Shown: piece by piece, positions 6,652 through 40,300 of the stretch | Layout: each line of letters opens with the position of its first letter | How positions within the stretch are numbered: position 1 is the first letter of the stretch | From: Dietzia cinnamea NBRC 102147 | GTDB lineage: Bacteria; Actinomycetota; Actinomycetes; Mycobacteriales; Mycobacteriaceae | Length of the DNA stretch: 40,300 nucleotides | NCBI RefSeq assembly: GCF_001571065.1 | Contig: NZ_BCSW01000027.1 | Location: forward strand, 1-40,300 | Direction of reading: 5' to 3' | The notes under the pieces: model-generated | What the model was told of the DNA's origin: nothing | Database searches by the model: none | The model's input: only the letters and a program-made list of their open reading frames with translations | Made by a program: the position numbers and the translations under genes

Positions 6652-6826
6652 TTGTGGTTCTCCCGGGTCTGAGGGTGCGGCGCGGATCCGCGCGTATGTC
6701 GTGAACCACCTTAGTGGTCACGGCCGCGGGGGGCGTACCGTCCCCGCCCCCGCTCTTTCGCGGACCGCGCGGGGGGGACGTAGTATCGGCTCGGTAGTGC
6801 GTTGACGTCTGCTGCGAGGAGTTCCG
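6652..6826. promoter_or_regulatory. Divergent tkt/ctaB promoter region
   Basis: This 175-base spacer separates the tkt operon from ctaB. On the plus strand TAGTAT at 6781-6786 is a fair -10 box, with no convincing -35. GAGGAG at 6816-6821 is the ctaB ribosome-binding site. On the minus strand TAAGGT (6708-6713) could serve tkt. It overlaps a small inverted repeat, ACCAC-CTTA-GTGGT (6705-6718), which could be an operator. Promoter assignments rest on hexamer resemblance only. Confidence 0.4.
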
Positions 6827-7843
6827 GTGCACGATTCCACCCCGACCCGGAGTGGGGGGCCATCAGTCTCCCCTCCAGAGTCCACGGGGCGGCCGGCTCC
6901 GGCGAGCGGGCGGGCCCGCGTGGTCGACGTGGTGATGGCGTACATCGCCCTCACCAAGCCGCGGGTCATCGAGTTGCTCCTCGTCGCCGCTATCCCGGCC
7001 CTGCTGCAAGCGGATCGCGGGAACATCCACCTCTCCCTGGTGCTGCTCACCCTAGTCGGCGGTTGGATGGGCGCGGCGAGCGCGAACTCGCTCAACATGG
7101 TCGTCGACTACGACATCGACCAGGTGATGAAGCGCACCGAGCGCCGCCCGCTCGCCCGCCACGCGATCACCCCGCGTGCCGCGCTGGTCTTCGGCCTGAC
7201 GCTCGGTGTGGCGAGCATGCTCTGGCTGGGGCTCCTGGCCAACAGCTGGCTCGCCGCCTTCTTCATCCTCATCACGATCCTGTTCTACGTGATCGTGTAC
7301 TCGATGATCCTCAAGCGGCGGACCGCTCAGAACGTCGTCTGGGGCGGCGCCGCGGGCTGCATGCCGGTTTTCGTCTCGTGGGCGGTCATCACCGACAACC
7401 TGCCGGATGGACAGCCCCATAACTGGTGGCAGGCGGTCGTGCTGTTCCTCATCATCTTCTTCTGGACGCCACCGCACACCTGGGCCCTCGCGATGCGTTA
7501 CAAGGAGGACTACAAAGCCGCCGGCGTGCCGATGCTGCCCGTGGTCATGGGTCCCGAGGGCGTGACCCGCCGCATCACGATCTACACGTGGGTCACCGTG
7601 CTGTGCACGTTCGCGCTCATCCCCGCGGCGGGTTGGGTCTACGCGGCCGGCGCGATCGGCTTCGGCGTGTGGTTCATCGTCATGGCGCATCGCCTCGAGG
7701 CGGGCGTGCGCCGCGGCGTCGAGGTGAAGCCGCTCAAGCTGTTCATTTTGTCGAACAACTACCTCGCCGGGGTGTTCGTGGCCCTGTCCATCGACGCGGT
7801 GCTCGGACTGCAGACCGTGGCGGAGCTCCTGTCGCTGGCCTGA
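6827..7843 (+). CDS. ctaB: Protoheme IX farnesyltransferase (heme O synthase)
   Basis: Adds a farnesyl group to protoheme, giving heme O for aa3-type cytochrome oxidase, in the cytoplasmic membrane. The 338-residue product is a UbiA-family membrane protein. It has the first prenyl-diphosphate motif N-x3-D-x3-D at N90/D94/D98, followed by [12 protein letters not shown] second loop, [16 protein letters not shown], is typical of CtaB. Several hydrophobic helices follow residue 33. The start is GTG with GAGGAG five bases upstream. Its partner ctaA lies nearby at 10447-11442, and the two act in sequence. It ends only 11 bases from the convergent qor-like gene. Confidence 0.95.
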
Positions 7844-7854
7844 CCGGGTCCCGC

Positions 7855-8823
7855 TCAGCGGTCGGGGTCGAGTGTCACCGAACCCGTCGTCCGCCGCTCC
7901 TGCAGGGCTCGGTGCGCTTCCGCGGCCTCTGATAGGCCGAACGTCGCCCCCACCGACAGCCGCAGTGTGCCGTCGACGACCCCTTCGAGGACCTCGCCGG
8001 CCCGGCCGCGGAACTCCTCCGTCGTCGCGATGTAGTCGGCGAGGGTCGGGCGGGTGAGGAACACCGATCCGGCCGCGTTGAGTCGCTGCGGATCAACCGG
8101 GGGCACCGGACCGCTCGCGGCGCCGAACAGCACGAGCGTGCCGCGCCGTGCGAGGACCGCCAGACTGTCGTCGAACGTGTCCCTACCCACGCCGTCGAAA
8201 ACGGCGGCGACGCCCCCCTCCGCCAACTCACGCACCCTCTCCGGCGTGGCCTCCGGGTAGAGCAGCACGTGGTGCGCCCCGAGGTCGCGGCAGAGGTCGG
8301 CCTTCTCCTCGGTCGAGGTCGTCGTGATCACCCGGAAGCCGTGGGCCACCGCCAGCTGGATGAGGAGCTGTCCGACGCCGCCCGCCCCGGCGGTGATTAG
8401 CACGTGATCGCCGGCCGAGGCCCGGTGGGTGTCGGTGATCAGGTAGTGCGCGGTGAGTCCCTGCAGCAGCATCGAGGCCGCCACGTCGTCGTCGATCCCC
8501 TCCGGCACGGTGACCACCGACTCGGCGGGGGCGACGACGTACTGGGCGTAGGAAGAGGGCACCTGGCACCAGGCCACCCGGTCACCGGCGACCAGGTCGG
8601 GAGTGCCCTCGCCGACCGCCTCGATCACCCCCACGCCTTCGCTACCCGGGACGAACGGCAACTCCCGCGCGTAGACGCCCTCGCGAAAGTACGTGTCGAT
8701 GAAATTGACCCCGATGGCGCGGGTACGGACGAGCACCTCGCCCGGGCCGAGCGACGGCTCGTCGACCTCCACCGGTGTGAGCACCTCGGGGCCGCCGTGT
8801 CGGGAGATCTGGATCGCACGCAT
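7855..8823 (-). CDS. Quinone oxidoreductase, zinc-independent MDR family
   Basis: A 322-residue member of the medium-chain dehydrogenase/reductase superfamily, probably an NADPH-dependent quinone reductase. The N-terminus MRAIQISRHGGPEVL and the Rossmann motif AGAGGVGQLLIQLA are characteristic. The catalytic-zinc ligands of alcohol dehydrogenases are absent, as in the QOR (zeta-crystallin) subfamily. It occupies the position of M. tuberculosis Rv1454c (qor). The ATG at 8823 has no ribosome-binding site but has a -10-like GATACT ending seven bases upstream, so the transcript is probably leaderless. Substrate is not determinable from sequence. Confidence 0.88.
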   Translation of the reverse strand: MRAIQISRHGGPEVLTPVEVDEPSLGPGEVLVRTRAIGVNFIDTYFREGVYARELPFVPGSEGVGVIEAVGEGTPDLVAGDRVAWCQVPSSYAQYVVAPAESVVTVPEGIDDDVAASMLLQGLTAHYLITDTHRASAGDHVLITAGAGGVGQLLIQLAVAHGFRVITTTSTEEKADLCRDLGAHHVLLYPEATPERVRELAEGGVAAVFDGVGRDTFDDSLAVLARRGTLVLFGAASGPVPPVDPQRLNAAGSVFLTRPTLADYIATTEEFRGRAGEVLEGVVDGTLRLSVGATFGLSEAAEAHRALQERRTTGSVTLDPDR

Positions 8824-8937
8824 GGCGCCCAGTATCCGGTAGGGCGCGGCCCGGCGCAGCCGGAGCGCCGTCACCGGTTCGGGGCAACGCGGGAGTGCCG
8901 ACCGATCCGCAGCGGGGGAGACGATAGGCTACGCCCC
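8824..8937. promoter_or_regulatory. Divergent leaderless promoters, qor-like/low-complexity gene
   Basis: Two -10-like hexamers face away from each other. GATACT on the minus strand (8831-8836) is seven bases from the ATG at 8823. TAGGCT on the plus strand (8925-8930) is seven bases from the ATG at 8938. Neither start codon has a Shine-Dalgarno sequence. That spacing is what leaderless actinobacterial transcripts show. No clear -35 boxes are seen. Confidence 0.45.
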
Positions 8938-10236
8938 ATGAGCCTGCAGATCCTTTCCCAGTACGCCGGGGGGCCGCGAGTCCGGGCCACCGGCCGGTCC
9001 GAGATCACCACGACGGGATCCGATACGGCGTCCGAACCCACAGAGTCGTCGACGGCGGCTGAGGAGACGACGGCGGTTCCCGCGGCCGCACAGGCCGAGC
9101 CGTCCGGGGCCGGCGTGGACGAGCAGGCTTCCATCGCCCAGGACACACCGGAGGCGGGGGAGCCGGCAGCGGAGGCCGGGACCCCGGAGAAGCCGGCCCC
9201 AGCTCCCGCCGCAGCCGGCGGTGCGGGCGGTGCGGGCGGCGGAATCTCGCTCGGCCGTCGCGCCCCGCGCGCCCCGGGGGGAGGTGCGTCGACCCTGCAC
9301 GGCTCGCGCATCACGGAGCTCGGCGGCGGTTCCGCCCCGGCGTCCTCCGCGTCCGAGCCAACTCCCACCGAATCGGCGCCAGAGGCCGAGGACGCGGCGC
9401 CGGCCTCGCCGAAGCCGGCGACCGTCGCTCCCGCGTCCGGTGGCGGCCTCAAGCTCGGTGGCGGCTCCAAGGCCAAGGCCCCCGGCGGCGGTTCGGCCGC
9501 CAAGGTCGTGCTCGGGGGCGGCGCCGCGGCTGCCGCGGCGGGAGTTGCCGGCACCGCTGCGCCCGTCGCGGAGGAGAAGACCTCCGGCACCGCTTCGCCG
9601 GCCGAGAAGAAGTCCGGCGGTCTCACCCTGGGTGGCGGCTCCGGCGCGAAGGCACCGGGCGGCGGCGCGTCCGGCGGTCTCACGCTCGGCGGCGGGTCCA
9701 AGGCGAAGGCCCCCGGAGGCGGCACGTCCGGTGGCCTCACGCTCGGTGGCGGCGCGGCCGCCGCGAAGCAGACCGCGGAGCTCACCGCTGACGCGAAGGA
9801 GACCGACGCACCGTCGGCCGCCGATCGCCCGGCCGACGCCCCCGCCGCGTCGCAGCCCGCTGCTGTGCCCCCGGCGGACGAGCCGGCGGAGAAAGCCGAG
9901 AAGGCACCGGCCGAGAAGATCGAGGCCGCGCCGGTTCCCGCGGGTCCGACGCCTCCGGCCAAGACGGCCAAGTTCGTGGAGAAGTTCCTCGCCCGCCACG
10001 GCGGGTCGGCGGACGTCGTCCTCCAGCCGGTCGGTCGCCGCGGCGTCCGTATCACCCTCGTGGGTGCCGACGGCGTCCTCGGGGACACGATGGTGGACTC
10101 GCTGTCCGAGGCCGAGTCCGTCCGCGACGGCATCTCCGGCCTCAGCGGCTCGGACTGGACCCGCGAGCTCGTGTCGCGCACCGATGTCCCGGCGGGGCAC
10201 TGGAAGCGCATGGCGGGATCGGGCGCTCTGGTCTGA
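8938..10236 (+). CDS. Ala/Pro/Gly-rich repeat protein with conserved-looking C-terminal domain, function unknown
   Basis: A 432-residue protein I do not recognise. Residues 1-165 are Ala/Glu/Thr/Pro-rich and look disordered. Residues about 167-280 hold imperfect 19-residue repeats of the form SGGLTLGGGSKAKAPGGG(A/T). An acidic, Ala/Pro-rich linker follows. The last 95 residues (from AKTAKFVEKFLARHG) look globular and end ...VPAGHWKRMAGSGALV. There is no signal peptide or membrane segment. It sits where M. tuberculosis has Rv1455, but homology is untested. The ATG at 8938 fits a leaderless start; the frame is open further upstream within the qor-like gene, which is coincidental in GC-rich DNA. 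Confidence 0.75.
   Translation: MSLQILSQYAGGPRVRATGRSEITTTGSDTASEPTESSTAAEETTAVPAAAQAEPSGAGVDEQASIAQDTPEAGEPAAEAGTPEKPAPAPAAAGGAGGAGGGISLGRRAPRAPGGGASTLHGSRITELGGGSAPASSASEPTPTESAPEAEDAAPASPKPATVAPASGGGLKLGGGSKAKAPGGGSAAKVVLGGGAAAAAAGVAGTAAPVAEEKTSGTASPAEKKSGGLTLGGGSGAKAPGGGASGGLTLGGGSKAKAPGGGTSGGLTLGGGAAAAKQTAELTADAKETDAPSAADRPADAPAASQPAAVPPADEPAEKAEKAPAEKIEAAPVPAGPTPPAKTAKFVEKFLARHGGSADVVLQPVGRRGVRITLVGADGVLGDTMVDSLSEAESVRDGISGLSGSDWTRELVSRTDVPAGHWKRMAGSGALV
9436..9770 (+). repeat. 57-bp tandem coding repeats
   Basis: Units begin at 9613, 9670 and 9727, exactly 57 bases (19 codons) apart, with a more diverged copy from 9436. Each encodes SGGLTLGGGSKAKAPGGG-like sequence. The period is a multiple of three, so copy-number change would keep the reading frame. 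Confidence 0.75.
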
Positions 10237-24740: not shown

Positions 24741-26372
<1,632 letters not shown>

Positions 26373-26378
26373 GAGAAT

Positions 26379-26395
26379 CCCTTAGCTTGCTAGGG
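26379..26395 (+). terminator. Weak hairpin after the ABC-F gene, at the island edge
   Basis: CCCTTAG and CTAGGG can pair with one bulged T around the loop CTTG. It begins seven bases after the ABC-F stop. G+C content falls sharply from about this point. Confidence 0.3.
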
Positions 26396-26475
26396 TGAAC
26401 GCCATATTTTCGCGATGAAACAGACCATATCAGGCTAGGTATTCGACAGTTGGTGGTCCACCGGAAGGTGCGATT

Positions 26476-27723
26476 TTGACGTATTCAGGGAAACTTTTCC
26501 GCACAATCGTGAGACTGCCGTATCCACTACCTGTTTACAGTGGTCAGAAAGTTAGTCTCTATTCTACAGGTGCCGAAACTGGCGTCTCTGAACCCACCTT
26601 CCTTCAATTTCACGAAGGACGCAGCAATACCGGCCAAGCCGACATCCAGTTTAATTCTATTCGCGACCTGCTTGAGCATGAATCTCTAATTTCAAATAGT
26701 GATATGCCCCCATCTTCAGGCATCCAATATCGCTACACAATAGTAGATGCGATTACTACTATGCCCACACCTCGAGTTGAGTACACCTCGCAACATGCGC
26801 GCAATGTTCCGAGTGAGTACGACCCAATAAATAGAATAGTTTCTGGAATTGCCTTAGTTTCCCGGGCATACCTTCTGGCAACAAAGGCCCGTGTCCATAT
26901 CGCCTCATACGAAGACCTACCAGAGTTTCTTCCAGTTTGGATCGCCGACTTCGAGACCGAAGACTGGTCCAAACTCGATTTCAGAAAACTAGATTGGTCT
27001 GGATCAGTAGTATTGCTCGAGACACTTACATTCTCTCCGGACTGGTCAAACCCCGAACTTGAAGACGGCGGCGATCGAGAACTAGAAGAAGCAGCTAAGT
27101 TCTTCGCCCATCAAATTGAATCTGGCGATCCGCTGTCTTTGTCACTCGAATGGGCAATGCGGTCAAAGTATGCCATGAACGCCCAAGGAAACTACTACGA
27201 TGCAGTGTCGAATAGCATCACGTTTGTTGAATCCTTCACGGTCGCTATTGCTACATGCTTGCTGTGGGAAGAGCAGTTCGCCACCGACAAGTCAATCACA
27301 CCCGAGGAGGCTGCGGGATATTTCCAGTATGAAACCCGCGGCAGCATTGTCGAGCGGGTCCTACAACCGCGCTTAGGTGGCGACTGGACGTCAGTCCGTT
27401 CGCCATGGTCGGAGTGGAAATCGAGCGCGCGACCCTTGCGTCACCGCATTGTACATGCCGGATACTCGCCAGCACGAGCAGAGGCTGATCACGCCGTTGA
27501 CACGTCGCTATCGGTCCAATCCTGGATCCTAGACCTACTCAGCAAGAAGCTTCGCAAATTTCCTCGCACTAGCTGGATGACTATGGGTCAAGAGGGTTTG
27601 TCATCGAGAGGTGAATGGACTCGGTTCATTCAAGAGTTCATAGACGAACGTGCCGGCAAGGAATCAAACTGGAAGACCGAATACATTAAGTGGCATCACG
27701 ATGTGATGTCATATGAAAGCTAA
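26476..27723 (+). CDS. Candidate HEPN-domain protein, island border gene
   Basis: A 415-residue protein of unknown function with much lower G+C (about half) than its neighbours, and frequent codons such as AGA, CTA and ATA that are rare in the core genes. The N-terminal 200 residues look beta-rich and are not recognised. The C-terminal half is helical. It has a GNYYDAVSNSITFVESFTVAIA helix followed by PLRHRIVHAGYSP, in which R322-x4-H327 fits the catalytic R-x4-6-H motif of HEPN ribonucleases. It is convergent with the BREX-2 operon. The start is TTG, supported by GGAAGG seven bases upstream. The CDS call is firm because of length and composition. HEPN membership is inference from one motif and its helical context. 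If correct, an RNase toxin or abortive-infection role is likely. Confidence 0.8.
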   Translation: MTYSGKLFRTIVRLPYPLPVYSGQKVSLYSTGAETGVSEPTFLQFHEGRSNTGQADIQFNSIRDLLEHESLISNSDMPPSSGIQYRYTIVDAITTMPTPRVEYTSQHARNVPSEYDPINRIVSGIALVSRAYLLATKARVHIASYEDLPEFLPVWIADFETEDWSKLDFRKLDWSGSVVLLETLTFSPDWSNPELEDGGDRELEEAAKFFAHQIESGDPLSLSLEWAMRSKYAMNAQGNYYDAVSNSITFVESFTVAIATCLLWEEQFATDKSITPEEAAGYFQYETRGSIVERVLQPRLGGDWTSVRSPWSEWKSSARPLRHRIVHAGYSPARAEADHAVDTSLSVQSWILDLLSKKLRKFPRTSWMTMGQEGLSSRGEWTRFIQEFIDERAGKESNWKTEYIKWHHDVMSYES

Positions 27724-27883
27724 ATTGGATCACCACAATCGCACTATAGCATTTGATCACAGTCGAGTTAGCTATACATCCAACAGCTTTCGGAAGCTCG
27801 AATTACTTTCTTTGTTCATGCAACAAGATTCTACGCCTATTAGCTGCTTTCGCGGATGGTTCAGTTTCCGTTTTCTTTGTCTA
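27724..27883. other. AT-rich spacer between convergent genes
   Basis: 160 bases separating the candidate HEPN gene from the end of the BREX operon. It shares the low G+C of the former. Only weak complementarity (TATAGC near 27747 with GCTATA near 27770) is visible. No clear terminator, attachment site or gene was found. Confidence 0.4.
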
Positions 27884-29995
27884 TCAGCTGATCAGTCTTC
27901 GTGCGATGACCTCTTGTGCCCACTCCACCGGCAACGCCTCCGAGAACTTGAGCTTGTCGACCAGCGTCGGGGGCACCGCAGGAAGCGGCCTCTCGCTCTC
28001 CGGGAGTGACTCCAAGAACTCGAGCCTCTCCGCTGCAGCCTCGGTGGGCATGCCTTCATAGAGAGTGATCGCGTCGGGGTGGACTATCCCTCCCTGGGGT
28101 GCCAGCTCCTCACCGAGGGCCGGCCCGAGGGCTGCCTGGTACCGGCGGTTGGCTGCGCTGCCCTCGTAGGTCCACCATTTGCGGACGTGATCGGTGGTGG
28201 TCCACACCGGGCCGTGGTGACTGACGGTGTGCCGGAGCCGGTCCTCGTCGTCGGCGAGCGCTGCCCGGGCACGGGCGGTGAGTCGGATCTGCTCTGGCAG
28301 CTCCCCGAGGAGCACCGCCCGCATACCCTGCGCCACCTGGTACCCGATGTCCGCTCCACCGAACCCGTACCTGGCCCTGCCCCCGCCCGCGGCGGGCTCC
28401 ACCTGGACTCGGTGGCGAGGCCAGGTGATGTCGGTGACCTTCCAAGACCGTCCGGCGAGAAGCAGGTGGATCGGCCCCTCCCCTCCGGAGAGGGCGCGCC
28501 ATTCCACGGTGCCCACCTCCTGCCGGCCGGCGAGCACGGTGAACTGCCGCGGCATCGCGAAGGTGGTGAGCAGGTCCATGAAGTGGCGGCGGCCGAACAC
28601 CCTCTCGGCGTCGGGCCCGAGGAACATCGCGCCGCCGTCGACGGTGAGGTACCCGCGCTCCACCAGGAAGTCGACGATCAGCTCGGCGGGACGCTCCAGG
28701 GTCTCGACCGCCATCAACGGGGTGGCCGCCCACCGGTCCTGCCAGCCATACCGGGGGAGCGCGCCCTCCTGCAGCATCGCGGCCATGATCTGCTGCGCCA
28801 CCAGGTGCAGCGGGACCGGCGGCGGGACGACGGGTTCAACGTACCCAGTGCCCCACGCGTGGAGTAGCCCCAGTGTCCGGAGCAGATGACGGGGTTCGGT
28901 GGCGATGAACAGGCAGTTGCGGAGGGTGTCGGCGCGGCGGCCGGTCCGCCCAAGCCGTTGGACGAAGCTCGACACCGTAGAAGGCGCCCCGATCTGGATC
29001 ATGCGGTCCAGGTCCCCGATGTCGATCCCCAACTCAAGGGTCGAGGTGGCCACGATCACGCAGTCCCGCGCTTCAGCAAAGGCGATCTCGGACCGCCGGC
29101 GTTCTTCGGCGGATAGGGACGAGTGGGAGAGGTACACGTCCACGTCGAATCCGCGAAGCATGGACGCCAGTTCCTCGGCCTGCCGACGGCTGTCCACAAA
29201 CACGAGTCGCTTCTGCCCGCGGTACAGCTTGGACAGCAGGACCGCGGCGGAGTCGAGGGTGTCCACGGCGTCCACCACGATGTCGGCCTCCCCTGCAGCG
29301 GGCCGCACCGGCTCACCCACAGCGACACCCGGCGCGATCACCCGCCCGGCCCGCCCGTCGGCACCTCCCTGCAGCCACCGCAGCAGGTCCTCGGGGTTGC
29401 CCACCGTGGCGCTCATGCCGATGCGCTGCAGCGGCCGGCCGACCAGGTGCTCGAGCCGCGAGAGGACGGCGGACAGGTGCCAGCCACGGTCGTCGCCGGC
29501 AAAGGCGTGGACCTCGTCAATCACCACGGTCCGCAGATTGGCGAACAGCCTGCGGTGATCGGTCTTGGTGGAGGCGAGCATGGCCTCGATGGACTCGGGG
29601 GTGGTGAGCAGGATGTCGGGCGGATCGGCGCGGATCGACCGGCGGGCGCTCTCACCCACGTCGCCGTGCCACACATCCACGCGCCGGCCCATCCACTCGG
29701 TGTAGTCGACCAGCCGCACGGCGAGGTTGTTGAGCAGCGCCTTGAGCGGGGTGACGTACAGGATGGTCAGCCCGGCCCAGTCCTCGTGGGCCATGCGGGT
29801 GAGGACAGGAAAGACGGCCGCCTCGGTCTTTCCGCCAGCAGTGGGCGCGAGCAGCAGGGCGTCCTCGCCGTCGATGAGCGGCCGGACGGACTGCTCCTGC
29901 AGTGGCCGCAGGCCGGGCCAGCCGAGGGAGTTGACCACGTGGTGCTGGAGCAGTGGGTGCAGGGCGGCGAAGCCGCCCGGGGTGCGGTGGTCCAT
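27884..29995 (-). CDS. brxHI: BREX-2 DEAD/DEAH-box helicase BrxHI
   Basis: A superfamily 2 helicase of the Lhr-like group, the helicase of type 2 BREX systems. The 703-residue product has motif I APTAGGKT (50-57), motif II DEVH (160-163), motif III SAT (195-197), and motif VI QRLGRTGRR (346-354). A winged-helix and Lhr-type C-terminal region follows. It presumably remodels nucleic acid during phage restriction; its exact job is not known. The ATG at 29995 directly follows the brxD stop codon with no spacer (TAG-ATG), so it depends on the same message. It is the last gene of the operon and faces the candidate HEPN gene. Confidence 0.9.
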   Translation of the reverse strand: MDHRTPGGFAALHPLLQHHVVNSLGWPGLRPLQEQSVRPLIDGEDALLLAPTAGGKTEAAVFPVLTRMAHEDWAGLTILYVTPLKALLNNLAVRLVDYTEWMGRRVDVWHGDVGESARRSIRADPPDILLTTPESIEAMLASTKTDHRRLFANLRTVVIDEVHAFAGDDRGWHLSAVLSRLEHLVGRPLQRIGMSATVGNPEDLLRWLQGGADGRAGRVIAPGVAVGEPVRPAAGEADIVVDAVDTLDSAAVLLSKLYRGQKRLVFVDSRRQAEELASMLRGFDVDVYLSHSSLSAEERRRSEIAFAEARDCVIVATSTLELGIDIGDLDRMIQIGAPSTVSSFVQRLGRTGRRADTLRNCLFIATEPRHLLRTLGLLHAWGTGYVEPVVPPPVPLHLVAQQIMAAMLQEGALPRYGWQDRWAATPLMAVETLERPAELIVDFLVERGYLTVDGGAMFLGPDAERVFGRRHFMDLLTTFAMPRQFTVLAGRQEVGTVEWRALSGGEGPIHLLLAGRSWKVTDITWPRHRVQVEPAAGGGRARYGFGGADIGYQVAQGMRAVLLGELPEQIRLTARARAALADDEDRLRHTVSHHGPVWTTTDHVRKWWTYEGSAANRRYQAALGPALGEELAPQGGIVHPDAITLYEGMPTEAAAERLEFLESLPESERPLPAVPPTLVDKLKFSEALPVEWAQEVIARRLIS

Positions 29996-31297
29996 CTACA
30001 GCTCGATGGCGTCGGGGTCGTCGATGATTGACGACGACGAGCCCACCGCCGCGGACCGTTCGCTGTCGCTGAGGTCTGACGTGTTGAGCGTGGGATTGAA
30101 GTGCTCGCGCGGGAGGAAGTCGGGGAACATCTCGACGCGGTCCAGGCAGTCGACGAGCATCCGCAGGTACTGCCGGGGCGCGATGCCCACCTGCCCACCG
30201 AGCTTCCCGGCCACGGACTCGGCGAGCACGCGTAGGTACGCGTCGTCGACGAGCTCGGTGACCCGCTGCGCCGCGCCGGTCTCGAGCCCGGCGGCGTAGA
30301 GGTCCCGCACGCGCGAACCCACCTCGACGAGGCGGTCGAAGTCGAAGGGGTGGAGGCGGATCTGCGGTTGCCGGGGGTTGTCGAAGCGGGGGTCGGCGTC
30401 GAACTTCACGCCGAGACGCTGGTCGAGCGGCGGCAGACGCTTGATGCCCTGTTGCCCTTCGAAGAAGGCGCTGGTTCCGGTGATGAGCAGGTACATCCCG
30501 GGGTAGCGGCCGGAGTCCAGCTCGTCGATCCACTGGCGCAGGGCGTTGAGGGCCTTTTCGCGGACGTCGCCGCGCATGCGCTGGAGGGTCTCGACCTCGT
30601 CCAGCACCAGCAAGAGCCCGCGGTGGCCGGAGCCGGCGAGCACCTGGAGCAGGCCCTGGAAGAAGCCCATCGCGAGGAAGTGATCCAGCTCGCCCTTGAC
30701 CCCGGCGGCGCGTTTGGCCGACGCCGCCACATTGCGTTGCCCGCCGAGCCAGGCTGCCAATCCATCGGCGGTGTCGGCGTCGCCATTGAGCAGTGCCTCT
30801 CGGTATCCCCGGAGTGCGAGCGGAAAGACGGGTGCGGCCTCGGCCACGGGGCGCAGTCGCTCCTCCAACAGTGTGGCGCCGTCGGACCCGGCGGCGGCGG
30901 CGTCGTCCTCCACGCCCAGCAGCCAGTCGTCCAGGACCGCCCGGAACGCCTGGCGCGAGACCGCGGAGGTACGCAGCTCCTCACACGCGCGCCGGTAGAC
31001 GGTCTCGAGCCGGTGCAGGGGAGTCTCCAGCTCAGAGATCTGGACCTCGGTCACGGCGAACCCGCGGTCGAGCGCCTGCTGCTGGAGCCAGCGCGCGAAG
31101 AAGGTCTTGCCGGAGCCGTACTCGCCGCGGACGGCCTTGAACACGGCCGCCCCGCCGGCGACCTTGTCCAGTTCCTCACCCAGCACCGGCGCCAGCCGGT
31201 CCAGGCCCACGGCGAGCTGGTCCAGCCCTTCGGCGGGCACGGTTCCGCGGCGCAGGGCGTCGATGATCGCGGTGCGGCGGGCGGGGGAGAGAGTCAT
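29996..31297 (-). CDS. brxD: BREX-2 ATP-binding protein BrxD
   Basis: P-loop ATPase of the family found in BREX type 2 (BrxD, formerly DUF2791). The 433-residue product has Walker A GEYGSGKT (58-65) and Walker B LLLVLDEVE (228-236), in an AAA/STAND-like domain. A segment TGTSAFFEGQQGIKRLPPLDQRL follows, a family signature. Near the C-terminus lies a serine run (420-423) and an acidic tail. The ATG at 31297 immediately follows the pglZ stop (TAG-ATG). Its place between pglZ and the helicase is diagnostic of type 2 BREX. Confidence 0.9.
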   Translation of the reverse strand: MTLSPARRTAIIDALRRGTVPAEGLDQLAVGLDRLAPVLGEELDKVAGGAAVFKAVRGEYGSGKTFFARWLQQQALDRGFAVTEVQISELETPLHRLETVYRRACEELRTSAVSRQAFRAVLDDWLLGVEDDAAAAGSDGATLLEERLRPVAEAAPVFPLALRGYREALLNGDADTADGLAAWLGGQRNVAASAKRAAGVKGELDHFLAMGFFQGLLQVLAGSGHRGLLLVLDEVETLQRMRGDVREKALNALRQWIDELDSGRYPGMYLLITGTSAFFEGQQGIKRLPPLDQRLGVKFDADPRFDNPRQPQIRLHPFDFDRLVEVGSRVRDLYAAGLETGAAQRVTELVDDAYLRVLAESVAGKLGGQVGIAPRQYLRMLVDCLDRVEMFPDFLPREHFNPTLNTSDLSDSERSAAVGSSSSIIDDPDAIEL

Positions 31298-34210
31298 CTA
31301 CAGTCCGAACTGCTCAAAGAGGATCTGGGGTGCCAGCACCACGTCGTTGTCCTCGCGCTCGAGGACCGGCATGCCGTCCACGTTGACCACCTTCTGGATC
31401 CGCGCGACGGTGCCGCTGATCTGGAGCGCGTTGAGCCCGAGCGTTGTCCCGAGCACGGCGATGGGCATGCGGCCGTTGTTGGCGGCGATGGCTCGGAGCA
31501 CGTCCGCCAACTCGGCCGGGCTGGGCTTGAGCTGTTGGGCCTTGACCCGCTCCTTGAAGTACTGGGTACGGCCGAGATCGGCGAACTTGTCGGCGGGCTT
31601 GGCATGTGTAGCTCGAGCGGGAGTTGCGGTGGGCTCGTCGCCGTCGAACGAATCGAACAGCGACACCTGCTCGGTGGCACGTGCCGCCTTGCGCCTAGCA
31701 CCGCTCTTCGGGGTGGCGGGCCGCCCGGCCGTCGGTTGCCCCCCGGCCGAACCGATCCCGGTCGCTGAGGTCGGCGCGGCGTCCGCCGACGCCTCCGAGG
31801 CCGCCGTCGCGATGGGCCACCAGCCCGGCCACGGGTCCAGGACGGGCGGGCCGGCGGGGAACGTCGAGTGCTCGTCGAGTCCGTCGAGGCTCTGGACCAG
31901 GACGGCGACGGGGGCGCAGACCTCGGCGGGGGAGGCGCCGCCGTGGTAGCCAGCCTTCTTGCCGGTGTAGCGCAGGTCCTCGTCTACGGCCAGGATCGCC
32001 TCGTGCCGGGGTGTGCCGTCGGCGCCGGGCGCGAGGACCCGGTTGCCGGAGACGTACCGCTCGTTCTCCCCGGCGGGCCCCCCGGCGGCGGGCCGCCAGC
32101 GTGCGCTCACAGCACCGTCGGCGGTGACCTTGCCCACCAAGCTCCGTTCGACCACGTGACCGTGGTCGGAGAGCAGGACCACGTCCCGCCCCACCGCTCG
32201 GGCGTAGTCGAGCAGCTTGTCCAGGTGGGTGACGCGCGAGGTGGTCCAGGTGGTGGCGATGGGGTCGGACCGGTCCAGCGCGTCGTCGACGGTGTTGAGC
32301 ACAACCCCCACCACGGGGACGTGTGTGGTGTCGTAGATGGCGCTGCGGACGGTGTCGGTGAGGCCGGCGTCGAGATCTGCCTTGTGGAACAGCGTGCCGC
32401 CGGGGAACCTGGCGGCGAACCCGGACCTCTCCTCCTGCTGCCCGCCCAGCGCAAGCTCTCCGCGGAGCAGCGAGGTCCTCGACGCGGTGGTCACCGACGG
32501 CAGGGTGGAGGCGGCCACGTCGAGCCCGCGGGAGGCCAGGTCGAGCCGCTGCCACACGGTGGAGTGGCGAGCGGCCACGTCCTCGAGCAGGGCGTGCGCG
32601 GCGGGCACAGATAGTCCGTCGATCACCAGCACGAGCAGGGTTCGCTGTCCCCGCGTGCCGGACTCGACCGGCCCGGCCTCGCGCAGCGGAACCACCACCG
32701 TGGTTAGAACGTCCTCGACGAGCAGCGCGCCGCCGGCGGTGGCGCGATCGGCAAGCCTGGCCCCGACGAGCGCGGCGAAGCTGCGGTCGATCTCGCGCCG
32801 AACGGCGAGGGCTCGGTCGAGGACGCGGCGGCCGAGGGCGTCCGGGTCTGCGGCGGACTGCCCGGTCGGGGGCTTGGGGTCGGCGGTGAAGCCCCGCCAG
32901 GCGGAGTTGACGGCCCGGTCAACCCAGCTCAGCTCGTCGACGTAGGCGCGCATCGCCTCGATGTGGCCGGCGGACCGCAGCCGGTCCGCGGCGGCGACCG
33001 CCTCGGTCCGGTTCCACCGGTGCAGCCGGACCAGCGCGGTGGCGGTCTCGAGGTCATCGGGCCGGGAGCGTTCGGACTCGACGTGCGCCCGCAGCGCGTC
33101 GAGCCCGCGCAGCAGGGCTGTCTCGTCGCCTCCGTCAAGGGCGGTGGCGAGCCCGCGGGCGTACACGTCGAGGCGTCGCTGGAAGGCGCCGGGCAGGACG
33201 GTGGATCCGGCGAGCAGGGAGGCGCCGCCGTTCTGCTCGAATCCGGCGATCAGCCGGTGGGCCTCGCCGAGGACGGCGGTGAGCGGCTGACCGTCGTCGA
33301 GCGCTACGCGCACGGCCTTGGCTGCGGCGGAGCCCCATTCGCGCAGCGACTGCTCTCCGAGGGTGGTGCCGACGTGGTGGCGGAACAGGGCCCGCGCTCC
33401 GGTGAGTTCGGTGGGCGTGTCCTGCCACTCGGGGGTGCGGAGGGTCTCCGCCGCCAGCCCGGCCGGCAGCAGCGCCCGTGGCCCGTGGGTGGTCCACAAG
33501 CTGCGGATGCCGGACCCGGTCAGCGTGAAGGAGCGGCAGAGCCACGCGATGAGCCCCGCGCGGACGTCGTCGGTGAGCTGGGAGGCCAGCCCGTCCCACG
33601 CGTCGTGGGCGTCGGTCGTGGCGCTCCAGGCCAGCAGATCCGTGAGCCGGTGGTCCGGTTCCAGTCCCAGGACCTGTGTGCTGAGCGCGCCGTAGAGGTG
33701 GTCGGCGGTGAGAACCGGGGTCGGGGTGGGTGCGAGGGCGTCGCGGTGCTCGGCGAGCGCGGTGGTGAGCCCCCGCACGTCGTCGCGCCCGCGGGGGATG
33801 CGACCGTCGGTGCGGTCGGCGGAGAACATCCCGAGCAGGGTGCCCGTTGGGTCGAGTTCGCGCATCCGCCCGAGCGGCTGGAAGTGCTCCTTGACCCCCT
33901 GGGGGATCTCGTCCTCGGGGAGGTCGGTGAGCACGACGCGCCACGGCACGTCGGGGTCGTTCCGGTGCCGCACCACGTCGCGGATCTCGAGCACCGTCCG
34001 GCAGCAGTGGACGGGCACGGTGAGGTCGTCCACGCGCAGCGCGGTGCCGTCCCATTCGGGCCGGGCGTGCATCACCAAGAGTCCTCGTCGGTGCTTCTTG
34101 TCGCGGTAGAGACCGCCGAGGAGTGGGACGAGGTCGGCGGCGGTCGCCGTACCGAGGGACGACGACGAGGTGGTGCCACCCCCCGCTAGTCCGGCACTGA
34201 CTCCGGTCAC
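31298..34210 (-). CDS. pglZ: BREX-2 phosphatase-fold protein PglZ
   Basis: Alkaline-phosphatase-superfamily protein, the hallmark of all BREX systems; in Streptomyces Pgl it is needed for phage resistance. The 970-residue product has an N-terminal helical region, then the catalytic-type domain. Candidate metal ligands and nucleophile are D531 (LVLVIDGLS), T574/T575 ([11 protein letters not shown]), D682 and H683 (LLSDHGHV), and H756 (GYHGGASP). A low-complexity Ala/Thr/Pro linker near residues 800-870 leads to a winged-helix-like C-terminus. A serine run lies at residues 15-18. The GTG start at 34210 overlaps the pglY stop (GTGA). Length and domain order match Streptomyces PglZ. Confidence 0.93.
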
Positions 34211-37200
34211 GTCCCGGGCTCCTCGGCGGTGATCTCGATGCGGTAGCGCACGCCCGGCCCGTGGGTCCGCTTGAGGTCGGCGAGTGCCCGGTGGAGCGCG
34301 GCCTCAACTTGGCTACCGCGGGCCTCAAAGGACCGGCGTGGACCGAAACCCTCGATACGCACGGCATCGACCTCCGAGCCGCCGCCGGTGTCACCGGTCC
34401 CGCCGCCCGGACCGGACCGGGAGTCGTCGCCGGAACCATCTCCAGCACCCGATCCTGCACGGGAATCGCCGGTTTCTCCGGCGTCCCCAGTATCCCCGGT
34501 ACCTCCGTTGCCCGTGCCTCTGGAACCATCGCCCCCGGGTCCGCCCCCCGAACCATCGCCGCCCGCGATCACCCTGTTAATCCAGTCCTGGGCGCGCTTC
34601 TCGAACTTCTGCACCGCCGTGTTCAGGTGCTGGACGAACTCGTGGGTGTCGACGCCGCTGTCGAGGTCCACAATGATTTGCGCGGCCTCGGCGCCCAGAG
34701 CGCCCTGCTTTGCCCGCCCACCGATCAGGGTCTCGAGGGTTGGCCCGATGTTGCGCGCCACGGCCGCCACCTCCTCGGCGGTGGTGATGGACTGGCTCGC
34801 CTCGTTGGTGGTGGCCCCGAGGTAGGTGCCCGGCCCCTCACAGGAGGCGGCGAGGGCCGCCACGATCTCGCCGTGGTGCTGTTTCTTGCGCACCAACACT
34901 TGCAGCAGCTGCGTCTGCCGGCGCGCGAGCTGGAGCCGGCGCCCCTCCACGGTTCGCCCCAGACGCTGCTCGAGCTTCGACAGCTGCTCGACCAGATCCT
35001 CGCTGGACCGCTTGAACTCGTCGGCCTTGCTCGCCACCTCGCCCGCCAGGTGGGTGAGGTTGGTGGGGGAGAGGTGACCTCTCTCGGGAATGCCAAAGAG
35101 GTGCTGGGCAGCCTGGACGGCGCGATCCCACTCGCCCTGCTCGGGCAGTACGGGCTCGCGCAGCTGGTGCGACTGCTGGATGTCCTTAAAGGCCGGAGCT
35201 GCGACAGGGGTTCCGTAGGTGAACCAGCTGCGGTCGCGTGACTCGGCCCAGGCCGCCGCGAGCAGGGTGGTGCAGTCGCGGTTGAGCCCTGCCTGTGGCA
35301 TGAGCTTCTCGACGGCGGCCACTACCTGTGCCACCGTGAGTACGCCGTCGGCCTGCCCGGACTTCTCCGCCTCGGCGAGCGCGCGGTCGATCTGCCCGGC
35401 GAAGCTGGCAAAGGTGGCGCTGGGGAACACGAGGTGCGACTCATGGACGTCGGCCACCCGGAGGCCGCCCAGCACGAGCTGGACGGACTTGCGCTCGGCG
35501 GCCACAACCGCGGCGCGGCCGTCTTCGCGGGCGTCCGACCGGCGCAGCACGTCGAGTGAGACCGCGAAGTCCTTCTGCGTGAGCGCGCTGGTGGTGTCGA
35601 ACCGAGGGTGGTCGGGGTAGCGCTGGTCAAAGGCCTGATCGTAGAGCCGCCGGGCGGCCTCGCGCAGCGAAGCGCCGACGGGCCGCTGCACCACCACGGA
35701 GGAACTCAACGAGCGGACGGGCGGCTGCCCCTCGGGGAACACTGCGCCCTCGGCGATGCCGTACATCTTGCGCAGGATTGCGGCCAGCTGCCCGGCGAGC
35801 TGGTTGCGCTGGGTCACCATGACCTGGCGGACCCGCTCACGGTCGCCGTCGGCGAGGTAGCTGGTGTAGCCGAGCCACTTCTCCGACTGCAGAACCCAGT
35901 CCATGGTGACGAGCTTGCCCAGGTCGTCCATCTGCTTGCGATCGAGGAATGCGGGGAGCCAGGCGAGCGTGAAGTGATCGTGGCCGTCGGTACGGAGGCG
36001 GTCGAGTCGGGCGTGGTCCTCGGAAACTCCGTGGCCTTCTTCGTCGAACGGCAGGTCCACGATCACCCGCAGCGCCCCTGGTTCGACGGGGGCGATAAGG
36101 GTGTCGGGCACGGAGCCTGGGTCGCGGACGTTGCCAAAGACGATCTCGACGGTCCGATTCGTGCCGCGCCAGGTGATCCGGGTCGAGCGCGCGCCGTCGG
36201 CCTGCGGGTCGATGGCTGCGATCCCGAACTCTTCCTGCAGCATCGACCGGAGCCGTTCGCGGCGCCGCGAGAAGGTGTCCTCGCCGCGGGCGCGCTCAAG
36301 GATCTCGTCGAAGGGCAGCTCCTCCAGCGTGATGGAAATCAGCGGATCGTGGCTGTCTGTGCCCACGGTGATCTCGGGGACCGAGGTGTTCCACTCGCGG
36401 ACCGAGGCGAGCGCGCGGGTCGGCGCGTCAGAGGCGACGATCGAGACGAGCTCCCCGTGGTTGAGGTGCGCCAGGCGGCTGGCGGTGAGCGCCTTGAGCC
36501 CTGGCACCTCGGGCGCGAGAGCGGAGAGCAACAGCGTCTTGGCCAGCCGGAGCTGGGCCCGCACGCCCTTGGGCTGGTCCAGGTCCCGCACGCTCGGGTC
36601 GGCGTCCGGGAACTGGGCCAGGACGGCGGGACGGAGCTTGTCGTGCCACAGGGTGCGCGCCGTGCGGAACCGGGCGGCCACCGCCTCGTCGGTGCCGCCC
36701 TTCTGGGTGCCGTCGATGATGTAGTCGAACACCTCGCCCACGGGTATCACCTGGTCGACGGTCATGGTGTCGGCGAGGTCGACGAGCATCGACTCCATCA
36801 CCTTGAGCGCGGTGCGGTCGCGCTGCATGGCGGTGGACAGGTGGACGAGGGTGTCGATGAGGACCGGGCTGAAGGGATAGGTGAGCCGGAACTGCTCCTC
36901 GGTGGCTCCGCGGTGCTGGTCGTCGGTGTTGACCTTGTCCAGCAGGACGGGCTTGACGGCCGGGGACAGGTGCAGCCGCTGGAACGAGGCCTCGAGAGCC
37001 TCGACCGCCGCGGCGTTCTTGGGGGTGAGGAGTCGGCGGTGGGCGATCTGCGGCAGGTTGGCCGAGCCGAGCGCGATGCCGGAGAAGCGGCCTTCCTGGT
37101 GGGCGATGGCCTGCTCGCGGATCTTGGTGGCCTCGCCGGCCTCGATCGACGAGTCCTTCCACGCCTTGAGGTCGTGCTGACGGGCGATAAAGCTGACGAC

Positions 37201-38190
37201 CGGCACGGCCATGCGCCCCTGGTCGGATTCGACGAACCCGGTGAGCTTCTGGATCTCGCGGCCGAAGAACTCGCGGTTGGAGAAGTGGAAGGTGAGCCAC
37301 AGGATCAGCTCGTCGAGCAGCAGGACCACAGCCTCATAGCCGAGGGTCGTGGCGTGCGCCGCGATGGCGGACAGCCCCTCGGGCAGATGCAGCCAGTCGG
37401 TGTTGGTGTGCGCGGAGGTGATCCACGTCTGGCCGAGCGCGGAGACCAGCGCATCCCGCTCGGCGCGGGACGCGGCGGGGTGTCGGGCGCGGTCGTAGGA
37501 GTCGCGGTCCCAGGTGGCGGCGGTGGCGCCGCCGAGCGCGGCCAGGTCCAGGCCCCCGGGGGCGGAGGACGACGACGAGGTGACGCCGCCAGGTCCGGTG
37601 GTGGCAGTGGCCAGGCGGGCGAAGAACCTCTCGTCGCCGACCTCGGCACGCATCTGTTCGGCGTTCTCGAGCAGCCCGTCAGCCATGTGGAGTACCGGCG
37701 GGGTGACTCCCGGGTGGAGCCGGTTCAGGTGCGCCAGGTACGCCGAGAAGAGGGTGTCCTCGATGGAGTTCGAACCCAGGAAATGGAAGGGCAGCGCGAG
37801 GATCTTGCTCGACGTGGCCCGCGGGTGGTCGGCGATGTGCTGCTGGAGTTCGGCGATGGCGCGGGCGCGAGGGTCGCCGGTGAGCAGGGCCAGGAGTACA
37901 GCCATGAAGTGCGACTTGCCGGAGCCGAATGAGCCCTTGAGGAAGGCCCCCTTGTTCTCTCCGGTGGCCAGGGCGCTGTCGACCAGGGCGAGCGCCTCGT
38001 CAAAGGCATCGCCGATGGACGGGGTCACCACGTACTCGGCCAGGGTGGTCCCGAGTTCGTCTCTGGTGACGGCGTCGGAGAGTTGGAGGACGAACGTCGA
38101 GGTTCCCGAGTGCTCGGGGATCGAGAAGACGTCACGCAGGGTGGGGCTGGTGCCCGACCCTGCCGTCGCGCCGGGAGGGGTGAAGGCCAT
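34207..38190 (-). CDS. pglY: BREX-2 ATPase PglY
   Basis: Large P-loop ATPase of the BrxC/PglY family (DUF6079). The 1327-residue product has Walker [10 protein letters not shown] (86-94) and Walker B VVLLLDE (288-294). A serine run follows a Gly pair at residues 205-209, between the two. Long helical regions make up the middle. A Gly/Asp/Ser-rich stretch of about 60 residues (encoded near 34377-34566) then precedes a compact final domain of about 45 residues. In Streptomyces the Walker motif of PglY is required for the Pgl phenotype. The ATG at 38190 is five bases after the pglX stop. It is the longest gene in the window and complete. Confidence 0.93.
34377..34566 (-). repeat. Gly/Asp/Ser-rich low-complexity segment in pglY
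   Basis: About 63 codons rich in Gly, Asp, Ser and Thr with short repeats such as GTGDTGD and GDGSG. It links the helical body of PglY to its last domain and is probably a flexible tether. Confidence 0.6.
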
Positions 38191-38195
38191 GGCCT

Positions 38196-40300
38196 CTAGC
38201 TTTCCTTATCGGGTGTAGTAGCTGCGCCTGCGACGCGCTTGCGGCCGCGGGTCGCTGGGGCGGGACGCCAGGCGGACAGGTCGGCGATCGCGACGCCGGA
38301 ACGCTCGGCGAGCGAGGTGAGCTGTCCCCCGAGATAGTCGGCCCAGTCGATTCCGGAATGGGCGTCCATGCCGGAGTGCCACTGACGGATCCACGGCATG
38401 AGCTCGGCCAGCCCAGCGACGAGCGGAACGAGCTGAGCGGGGTCGGTGTCGTCCTTGCGATCGTCGTACAACGACACCAGGGCGATGCCTTGCTCGGCGT
38501 GGTCCCAGCCCGCCCAGCCCAGCATTGCGGTGGGATCGTCGGGACCCGAGGCACCGGGGTAGGAGATGAACCGTTCCTTGGGCACGTCGAGCTTGCCGCG
38601 AGCCTGCCAGTACGAGGCTTTGCGGAAGTCCGCGGAGGTGTACTTGGGTGGGACCGGGACCTGGGCGGTGGTGATCTCGCCGCGGTCCTCGGCACGCTGG
38701 GCCTCCCACGTGACCTGCCACTCGGCGAACTTGCGCAAGCCCGAGTCCTTGAGCCGGAGCGCGGCCAGGTACGGCACGGCCTCGTCCTGCAAGAGCGCCA
38801 CGAGGTTGGTGAGCACGCCGGCCTGCCGCTTGCTCGACCACAACTCGAGCGCCTCGGAAACTCCGGCCAAGTGCGGAGCGGTCTCGACCTTCGCGGCGAG
38901 CTGACGGACCGACTGCGGCTGCGGATACCCGTTGGGGTCCTTCCACAGCTCGGGGGTCTCTAGCCTGTCCAGGATCCACGCCGCCAGAGCTGCGCGGACC
39001 CGGTCGGACCACGGCACGGAAGACCAGCGCCGCTTGTACTCGGGACGCTCCAGCAGCTCCAGCGAACGATCCTCGGCGATCAGGTTCAGTCGCTGCTTTA
39101 CGCAGGCCCGATACTCCTCAGGTAGGTGCGCGGGAATCTCGGTCACCGGCGTCGAGCGGTGGCGCTCGAACCATGCAGTCTCGGCCTCACCTGCCTGCAC
39201 CTTACGGGCCAGGGCGACCTCAAACGCCCGCTCACCCAGCGCTATCCCGGGCACCTCACCCACCGGCAGCGCCAGGTCTGTCTCGGTGAACCCGTACAGG
39301 TGATACACCTGCCAGTCCAGCTCCTCCTGCTCGGCGATCATCAACCCTCGGAGTCGTTCCCATTCGGCCTCACCGCTGGCGAACAGCTCCGCGGAAGGAG
39401 ACGAATCCTCAAGAAGCGCGGCCGGCTCGACCGACGCCAACTCCTGCGCGAGTTGGTCGATGCGACGAGCACGCTCCAGCGTCGAGCCGGAGGGAAGGGG
39501 GAAGTCCTTGAGCGTGGTGCCAGTGTATTCATAGAAGTTCTCCCACGGTGCCAACGTGGTCCGCGCACCCTTCGAGTCAGTCGTGCTGCCCTTATTGAAG
39601 CAATTCTGTCTGAACCAAAACGCCGCCGTCGACGAGTTGAGCACCCCCAGCAGTTCAAGGTGCTCGTCCTCGCTCGCCCCCTCCTGCAGCTTGATCACCG
39701 GCGCCGAACGGTTGAACACCTTCCCGCCGCGATCCAAGACGAAATGGTTATGCGTCGCGACGAACGCAAACGCGATCCGAATTGGCCCTCTCAGTTTGGC
39801 TGGGTAAAGTTCACCAAACTCCCACCAATAATGACTGTCGAGCTCCTCGATGGGGCGACCGAACCGCTTTCGAAGCTGCATAATGCGCCTAAGTGGCCAG
39901 AAGTGCAGGCTACGGCCATCAAAATCCAAGTGCACGTAGTCCGTGCCGTAGGGAAAAATTGTCGTCGTAGACGAATATGCTTGGAAATCTCGGACATCAA
40001 GACCCTCGACCATTGTCCGAAAGTTCGTAATTCCCCTCCGCCGCATAAACCCGACGTCTGCAAAGAATGCATCGTCTTCGGCTGTAATCGCCGAGAAGCC
40101 GATCTGATCGACTCGACGTCCGAGGTGGGTCGCGATTTGGCTAAGGCGTTTAGAGATCTGTGGGGCGCCGCCACCTTGGAGAGACCACGGGTGCGCGTTA
40201 AGCACTTCTCGCGGGTATTCTAGAACACTGATCCAATTGTCCTCGTAGCCCGGCGTTTCGATGTTCTCGACAATACTGCGCCACACTACGCCATATGCGG
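38196..40300 (-). CDS. pglX: BREX-2 adenine methyltransferase PglX, C-terminal part (cut by window edge)
   Basis: The visible 700 residues are the C-terminal part of PglX, the adenine-specific DNA methyltransferase of type 2 BREX. The frame stays open to the right edge; a GTG at 40286 is internal, not a start. Recognisable parts include [44 protein letters not shown] and [19 protein letters not shown]. The last resembles the post-catalytic region of Eco57I-like methylases. The NPPY catalytic motif is not in view and must lie beyond the edge. About 39530-40300 is close to 50-55% G+C, far below the rest of the gene, and may hold the target-recognition part. The TAG at 38196-38198 is five bases before pglY. 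Confidence 0.88.

Follow-up and report, generated by a model that had tools for sequence, protein, structure and literature searches.

A HEPN-superfamily protein encoded beside a BREX-2 operon in Dietzia cinnamea, most likely a self-contained abortive-infection gene carried on mobile elements

HEPN proteins adopt a four-helix up-down bundle with an insert between helices 2 and 3 and with the Rx4-6H motif closing helix 3; the R of the motif is directly followed by a polar residue (N, D, or H), and DUF4145 is counted within the superfamily (PMC3710099). Tha, an anti-phage protein of S. aureus prophages, joins an N-terminal half of undefined nature to a C-terminal HEPN domain bearing R265NSIMH270, and phage tail proteins trigger it (PMC11087260). 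Earlier work has already put forward HEPN RNases as back-up effectors next to BREX (PMC12839542).

We analyzed a stretch of 40,300 nucleotides from D. cinnamea NBRC 102147 (hereafter the window), which is the entire contig C27 (NZ_BCSW01000027.1). An earlier note on this DNA had proposed a low-GC HEPN ribonuclease gene facing a BREX-2 operon, and both its ORF, 26476-27723, and its residue numbers, R322 and H327, proved exact. The features of the locus are as follows.

24741..26372, + strand: core gene for an ABC-F ATPase, to the left of the HEPN gene (20 of the 23 genus genomes have it)
26358..26368, + strand: left-hand copy of the short boundary repeat, GTCGAACTCGC, located at the 3' end of ABC-F (right copy at C43 8210)
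26373..40300, no strand: part of the island within the window (continues on contig C43 to about 8187-8210)
26463..26468, + strand: GGAAGG, Shine-Dalgarno-like, 7 bases before the TTG (read from the sequence)
26476..27723, + strand: HEPN-family gene, 415 aa, TTG start (ORF listing, start-codon check, homologue alignment)
26476..26958, + strand: N-terminal region, residues 1-161, alpha/beta in a low-confidence model, matching no known family, putative sensor (model, family searches)
27130..27546, + strand: four-helix HEPN core with a helical insert between helices 2 and 3, spanning residues 219-357 of the full-length model (two models; topology per PMC3710099)
27229..27231, + strand: E252, invariant acidic residue in helix 2 (alignments, domain model)
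27439..27456, + strand: Rx4H motif R322-H-R-I-V-H327, predicted to be catalytic, closing helix 3 (alignments, domain model, shuffles)
27562..27717, + strand: three partly conserved C-terminal helices that follow the core and span residues 363-414 (A4 alignment, models)
27884..29995, - strand: brxHI, convergent with the HEPN gene (family search)
29996..31297, - strand: brxD (family search)
31298..34210, - strand: pglZ of BREX-2 (family search)
34207..38190, - strand: pglY/brxC (family search)
38196..40286, - strand: pglX, C-terminal part, truncated where the contig ends (N-terminal part on C43:5-1543)

The start-codon check found TTG to be the sole possible start within the open frame of 26476-27723, and the starts of the homologues align with the N-terminus of the 415-aa protein. 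Checks near the gene for promoters, terminators, tRNAs, Rfam families, repeats, and RNA folds gave nothing exceeding chance or threshold. The low GC content claimed for the gene was borne out by computation: GC is 49.8% and GC3 is 0.50, against 63-73% and 0.77-0.93 in the comparison genes (ABC-F and five BREX genes). The earlier note had gone on to derive a separate acquisition from this foreign composition, and that step does not hold from GC alone, because low GC is common in the gene's family and because one island encloses both the gene and BREX-2. Indeed, GC below the surroundings is a common family trait: among 14 homologues compared with their own loci (locus GC counting the gene itself), 11 were lower, one was equal, and two were higher.

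The Rx4H motif by itself proves little, since 48% of 20,000 shuffles of the focal protein contain R....H (6% contain R[NHD]...H). We therefore examined its conservation in alignment A1, which comprises the focal protein and 14 homologues sharing 15-23% identity with it. Besides the start, the residues invariant in these 15 rows are G238, E252, W264, W304, W314, R322, and H327, and E252, R322, and H327 are likewise invariant in alignments A4 (nine rows) and A5 (11 rows). R, H, and E are kept in all 32 family ORFs from 30 loci, a count that is not fully independent because the ORFs were recruited by a family domain profile that contains the motif; the residue directly after the motif R is H in 16 of them, N in 15, and D in one. 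Conservation of R and H among homologues, a check proposed in the earlier note, was thus found throughout. No Ex3[KR] form of the acidic motif is seen in the family, E252 itself being invariant. As to the composition of these sets, L005 and L006 were not recovered by tblastn and stand outside A1; the same genes are L142 and L143, which keep R, H, and E; L040 and L042 are included in A5, L041 is in no alignment, and all three lie outside the 29 other family loci used below; and L032, interrupted by an in-frame stop, was represented solely by its part downstream of that stop.

The C-terminal half was modeled in the helix order of HEPN proteins. The R322-x4-H327 motif was confirmed in the sequence, and its helix-rich setting by two structure models. 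The AF2 domain model of residues 200-415 (pLDDT 87.8, pTM 0.85) has helices at 221-235 and 240-269, an insert at 276-284 and 288-300, and then helices at 310-328 and 334-356; E252 lies in helix 2 and RHRIVH closes helix 3. The four-helix order, the helix 2-3 insert, and the motif closing helix 3 are therefore all present, as judged by comparison of secondary structure. The fold alignment left out rows from genome-search loci. The full-length model is weaker (pLDDT 73.9), mainly in the N-terminal half. Foldseek searches against PDB and viral models returned no significant match (none at E ≤ 0.001), and among the best 50 of 293 rows the HEPN entries 1wol (highest probability, 0.72; TMt 0.57; E 2.3) and 3o10 (joint second, 0.51; TMt 0.50; E 2.7) stand low in the list. 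In the C-terminal helices after the core, P363, R364, G374, R378, and W399 are invariant in the nine rows of A4.

Curated models gave no direct assignment. The focal protein matched nothing in Pfam, NCBIfam, or PADLOC 2.0.0 at E ≤ 1, which also agrees with the description of its N-terminal ~200 residues as unrecognized, and nothing among PDB sequences at E ≤ 10; none of the 15 rows of A1 matched the HEPN models of Pfam at E ≤ 1, and the domain profile found no HEPN protein among PDB sequences, only two chance matches at E 0.17. Profile-profile comparison, another check suggested in the earlier note, yielded an indirect link to the HEPN models of Pfam through six intermediates of ~300 aa (L047-L052). 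With hhalign, the 15-row domain matched these intermediates at 97.8% (E 9e-13), while eight slices of PglZ used as controls scored 0.06-0.25%, and the profile of L047-L052 recovered the focal ORF at E 1.9e-5; their likeness to the family is selected, since it was the family's own profile that first brought them up. Evidence from outside this selection comes from L047, which lies exactly at the cut-off of PF05168 (HEPN), with 22.0 bits against 22 (E 1.9e-4); L049 and L052 fall below it. L047 also matched PF18739 below cut-off (E 0.0053). Of the ten relatives scanned, L047 included, seven others gave sub-threshold matches to HEPN models or DUF4145, together with some chance matches to unrelated models, and L041 and L044 matched no model. 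In A1, one member showed weak PADLOC matches to Csx1/Csm6 (best E 0.0029), and five of the 15 matched phrog_19381, a PHROG of unknown function (best E 0.001). Taken together, the invariance of the motif, the modeled helix order, and the indirect profile link make HEPN membership of the focal protein well supported, short of a three-dimensional comparison.

The N-terminal part behaves differently from the HEPN core. Mean pairwise identity in A1 is 0.19 over residues 1-200 and 0.29 over residues 201-360, and the former segment is the less conserved in 103 of 105 pairs. This divergence fits a sensor, but would equally fit any less constrained region; the N-terminal ~200 residues may perhaps be a sensor. 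L047-L051, whose five genera belong to a different family of the phylum, carry CxxC pairs near the N-terminus together with a similar HEPN module, which suggests that the module may be joined to different N-terminal parts.

Family members are patchily distributed. They occur in 13 of 397 genomes of the order, the focal genome included, and in one of 23 genomes of the genus, namely the focal genome itself. Four plasmid records contain relatives, and none was found in the phage records. A scan of genome_contigs with the single focal protein gave no relatives, and the four-row alignment A2 recovered 10 loci there and one in viral_contigs; L036-L038 were taken as likely G362, G382, and G273 and were not counted twice. 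In the class, 13 of 394 genomes were profile-positive, four of them through short weak matches; we took the short matches L027-L030 (E 7e-5 to 6e-4) to be chance. The 10 profile-positive genomes among 396 of the phylum are the focal genome, three with family members, and six with the ~300-aa intermediates. A tree of 20 rows places the focal protein with the Streptomyces, Arsenicicoccus, and Kocuria-plasmid members (support 94/91, not starred), and this position is uncertain because of its long branch.

The window protein and the members of Streptomyces, Arsenicicoccus, and the Kocuria plasmid are of a short form. A long form with ~130 extra C-terminal residues is found in L003, L004, L007, L010, L012, L015, L016, L035, and L039; seven of these nine have W-x3-(Y/H)-(H/R)-x2-P near the end. 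Two loci, L151 (G534) and L149 (G159), contain two family ORFs each; the pair in L151 (about 6330-9693) is divergent, with fewer than 200 bases between the genes, and could work together. The copy of Streptomyces alboflavus (L032, 4901-6220) is interrupted by an in-frame stop behind its N-terminal part, which may reflect gene decay or an error in sequencing.

We also inspected the neighbors of family genes, taking two ORFs per side where available, which gave 111 ORFs from 29 loci (111 of 112 were kept, L032:4955-5326 being excluded because it overlaps the family gene). In an uncontrolled tally limited to the families listed (the first 25 of 56 and of 72), the Pfam neighbors included phage integrases (three), DUF5677 (three), and TIR domains (two), as well as a relaxase, a resolvase, and transposases; single good PADLOC matches among those listed included type IIG restriction, a TIR effector, short-Argonaute SIR2, PifA, and others. 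In Arsenicicoccus (L034), genes for type ISP restriction and for a RAMA-domain protein precede the family gene on its own strand, and on the Kocuria plasmid the family gene is followed by a TIR gene and, at a greater distance, by one for an N-6 DNA methylase. Ordinary neighbors such as YchF, GlnE, and inositol phosphatase are also present, so that, with an uncontrolled tally, the mobile and defense neighborhood is suggestive only. The largest related groups among the 111 ORFs have three members. L145, L146, and L150, which are related family loci, share a convergent neighbor ORF of 272-275 aa. One DUF5677 neighbor is annotated in L015 and its homologue lies in L143. A two-gene system with a DUF5677-like partner was considered and dropped, because DUF5677 was found in only three of the 111 neighbor ORFs among the families listed and because a profile comparison of this partner with the other recurrent neighbor found nothing.

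In the focal genome, the island can be followed beyond the window. On C43, the N-terminal part of pglX is followed by pglW, a 437-aa ORF, and a 128-aa ORF. The 437-aa ORF (C43, locus L108, 6449-7762) is DO-GTPase2-like (PF19993, E 1.2e-7) and so resembles a class that has been assigned to predicted conflict systems (PMC7159879); the 128-aa ORF (7759-8145) has no Pfam match. In G008, a relative of the same genus, the ABC-F gene is followed, after ~100 bases, by sequence that matches C43 from 8187, so both the HEPN gene and BREX-2 lie between ABC-F and the sequence that follows it in G008. The 1.5 kb downstream of ABC-F in 19 relatives contained no match to the window except four of 23-40 bases. 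If C27 and C43 abut in pglX, a continuity that rests on the split gene, the HEPN gene and BREX-2 look like parts of one unit of ~22 kb; they may have come in one arrival or in successive ones.

In the window, GTCGAACTCGC occurs only at 26358. Its copy at C43 8210 marks the right boundary and lies inside a longer unit resembling repeats of the relatives; a further copy, at C43 4977 inside pglW, means that single copies can arise elsewhere. Nine relatives (L109-L117) have zero to four exact copies where ABC-F ends or beyond that point, three having none, and tandem copies are spaced 46-56 bases apart. The 3' end of the ABC-F gene is thus a probable insertion hotspot, apparently used repeatedly. 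ARAGORN found no tRNA gene in the window.

The earlier note had viewed the gene as a back-up module beside BREX and had proposed a survey of its homologues next to pglZ and brxHI. We tested this linkage in both directions. PglZ type 2 was above cut-off in 50 of 397 order genomes and in three of the 13 family-positive ones, against 1.6 expected by proportion if the two order samples are treated as the same genomes, going by handles. Two family-positive genomes with pglZ have the genes well apart, with ~1.48 Mb between them in G225 and a location on different contigs in G311. We then searched stretches of 15-20 kb around the 49 other pglZ genes, all of which included brxHI and brxD and 47 of which extended more than 1.5 kb beyond brxHI. 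No family member was found in any of the 49 other BREX-2 loci of the order sampled (E ≤ 10), while the positive controls, the window gene and six members outside the profile, were recovered at E 8e-28 or better; the profiles of L047-L052 and ApeA likewise gave no match in the 49 loci at E ≤ 10. Conversely, none of the 29 other family loci, of 4.7-21 kb, contained a BREX-2 gene (tblastn, E ≤ 1e-8). The pairing was therefore seen once in 50 BREX-2 loci, in the one island described here, and we rejected BREX-2 coupling as a recurrent feature; in this sample it is not a general property of the family. In the window itself, the HEPN gene lies outside the BREX operon, on the opposite strand and convergent with brxHI. 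Adjacency to BREX and an odd GC content do not make a gene part of BREX, and this one is probably an independent mobile defense gene.

These results bear on what the gene may do. It might still be a back-up suicide effector coupled to the adjoining BREX-2 and fired when BREX is overcome or inhibited, as its place in the same island next to brxHI would suggest and as reported for HEPN RNases beside BREX and related loci (PMC12839542). We regard this as unlikely in view of the absence of pairing in either direction, the distance between the two genes in G225, and an arrangement that is convergent rather than co-operonic, with a GC content far from that of the BREX genes. A toxin of a toxin-antitoxin or plasmid-stability module, in place of a phage sensor-effector, would agree with the carriage of family members on plasmids and with the frequency of HEPN domains among such toxins (PMC3710099). 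However, no partner was recognized in the window, where the neighbors are the core ABC-F gene and brxHI, and neighbor ORFs of the other loci form no related group larger than three, which makes this reading quite unlikely. A HEPN-MNT toxin-antitoxin pair was specifically rejected, as neither of these two neighbors is an MNT antitoxin gene; an N-terminal region of ~200 residues is not typical of MNT-paired HEPN toxins.

The remaining alternatives concern the HEPN domain itself. Some HEPN proteins have lost the motif and the nuclease role (PMC3710099), and L047-L051, present in five genera of one family, could be housekeeping genes, so that an RNA-binding or regulatory protein of HEPN fold with no suicide function might be imagined; yet Rx4H is intact in all 32 ORFs, and the family is patchily present in plasmid, mobile, and defense contexts, and we consider such a role very unlikely. 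That an unrelated helical protein carries the motif by chance hardly deserves credence: its frequency in shuffles and the absence of a significant HEPN match in Foldseek would allow it, but R, H, and E are invariant at low identity, and both the helix order and the profile link lead to HEPN.

We therefore favor, as the likely though by no means certain explanation, a HEPN-superfamily protein that acts as a self-contained abortive-infection gene on mobile elements. In such a system, the N-terminal region of ~200 residues would hold the enzyme inactive or else detect a signal made by the phage; upon infection, the HEPN domain with its intact Rx4H would, as a homodimer, cut RNA without metal, and the cutting would halt growth before phage release. 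RNase activity, dimerization, N-terminal sensing, and a role in phage defense are all inferred for this protein. Our broader proposal, on which we are evenly divided, is that it represents an unnamed, mainly actinobacterial family of single-gene HEPN defense proteins with a fast-changing N-terminal sensor of a new kind, a conserved RNA-cutting core, and short and long forms, which travels as plasmid and island cargo and was here picked up into a BREX-2 island. The family is apparently new and ordinary in kind, a HEPN effector in a defense island; we did not find it described in the open-access papers covered on HEPN proteins in connection with BREX, defense, ApeA, and DUF5677. If the gene does defend, it would add a HEPN effector family, with a candidate sensor, that is unmatched in PADLOC 2.0.0, Pfam, and NCBIfam.

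Compared with known systems, the protein resembles the HEPN superfamily RNases (PF05168 and relatives) in its Rx4H with H after R, the motif closing helix 3, the acidic residue in helix 2, and the helix 2-3 insert (PMC3710099), and differs from them in that no A1 row matches a curated HEPN model, that its N-terminal region is unassigned, and that Ex3[KR] is not kept by the family. It shares with ApeA (HEPN_Apea, PF18739) an N-terminal domain followed by a C-terminal HEPN domain, but membership of that family was rejected, as neither the window genome nor the 15 rows of A1 matched PF18739 and hhalign gave 6.9%. Like the back-up effectors described beside BREX (PMC12839542), it is encoded by a HEPN gene adjoining BREX genes; unlike them, the gene stands outside the operon and does not recur with BREX-2 in the order sampled. 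Tha-1 is a prophage-borne protein of 301 aa whereas the window protein has 415 aa, and the two share a layout in which one protein combines an N-terminal half of undefined nature with a C-terminal HEPN domain containing R-x4-H (PMC11087260). By this likeness to Tha, the window protein may be an autonomous sensor-effector.
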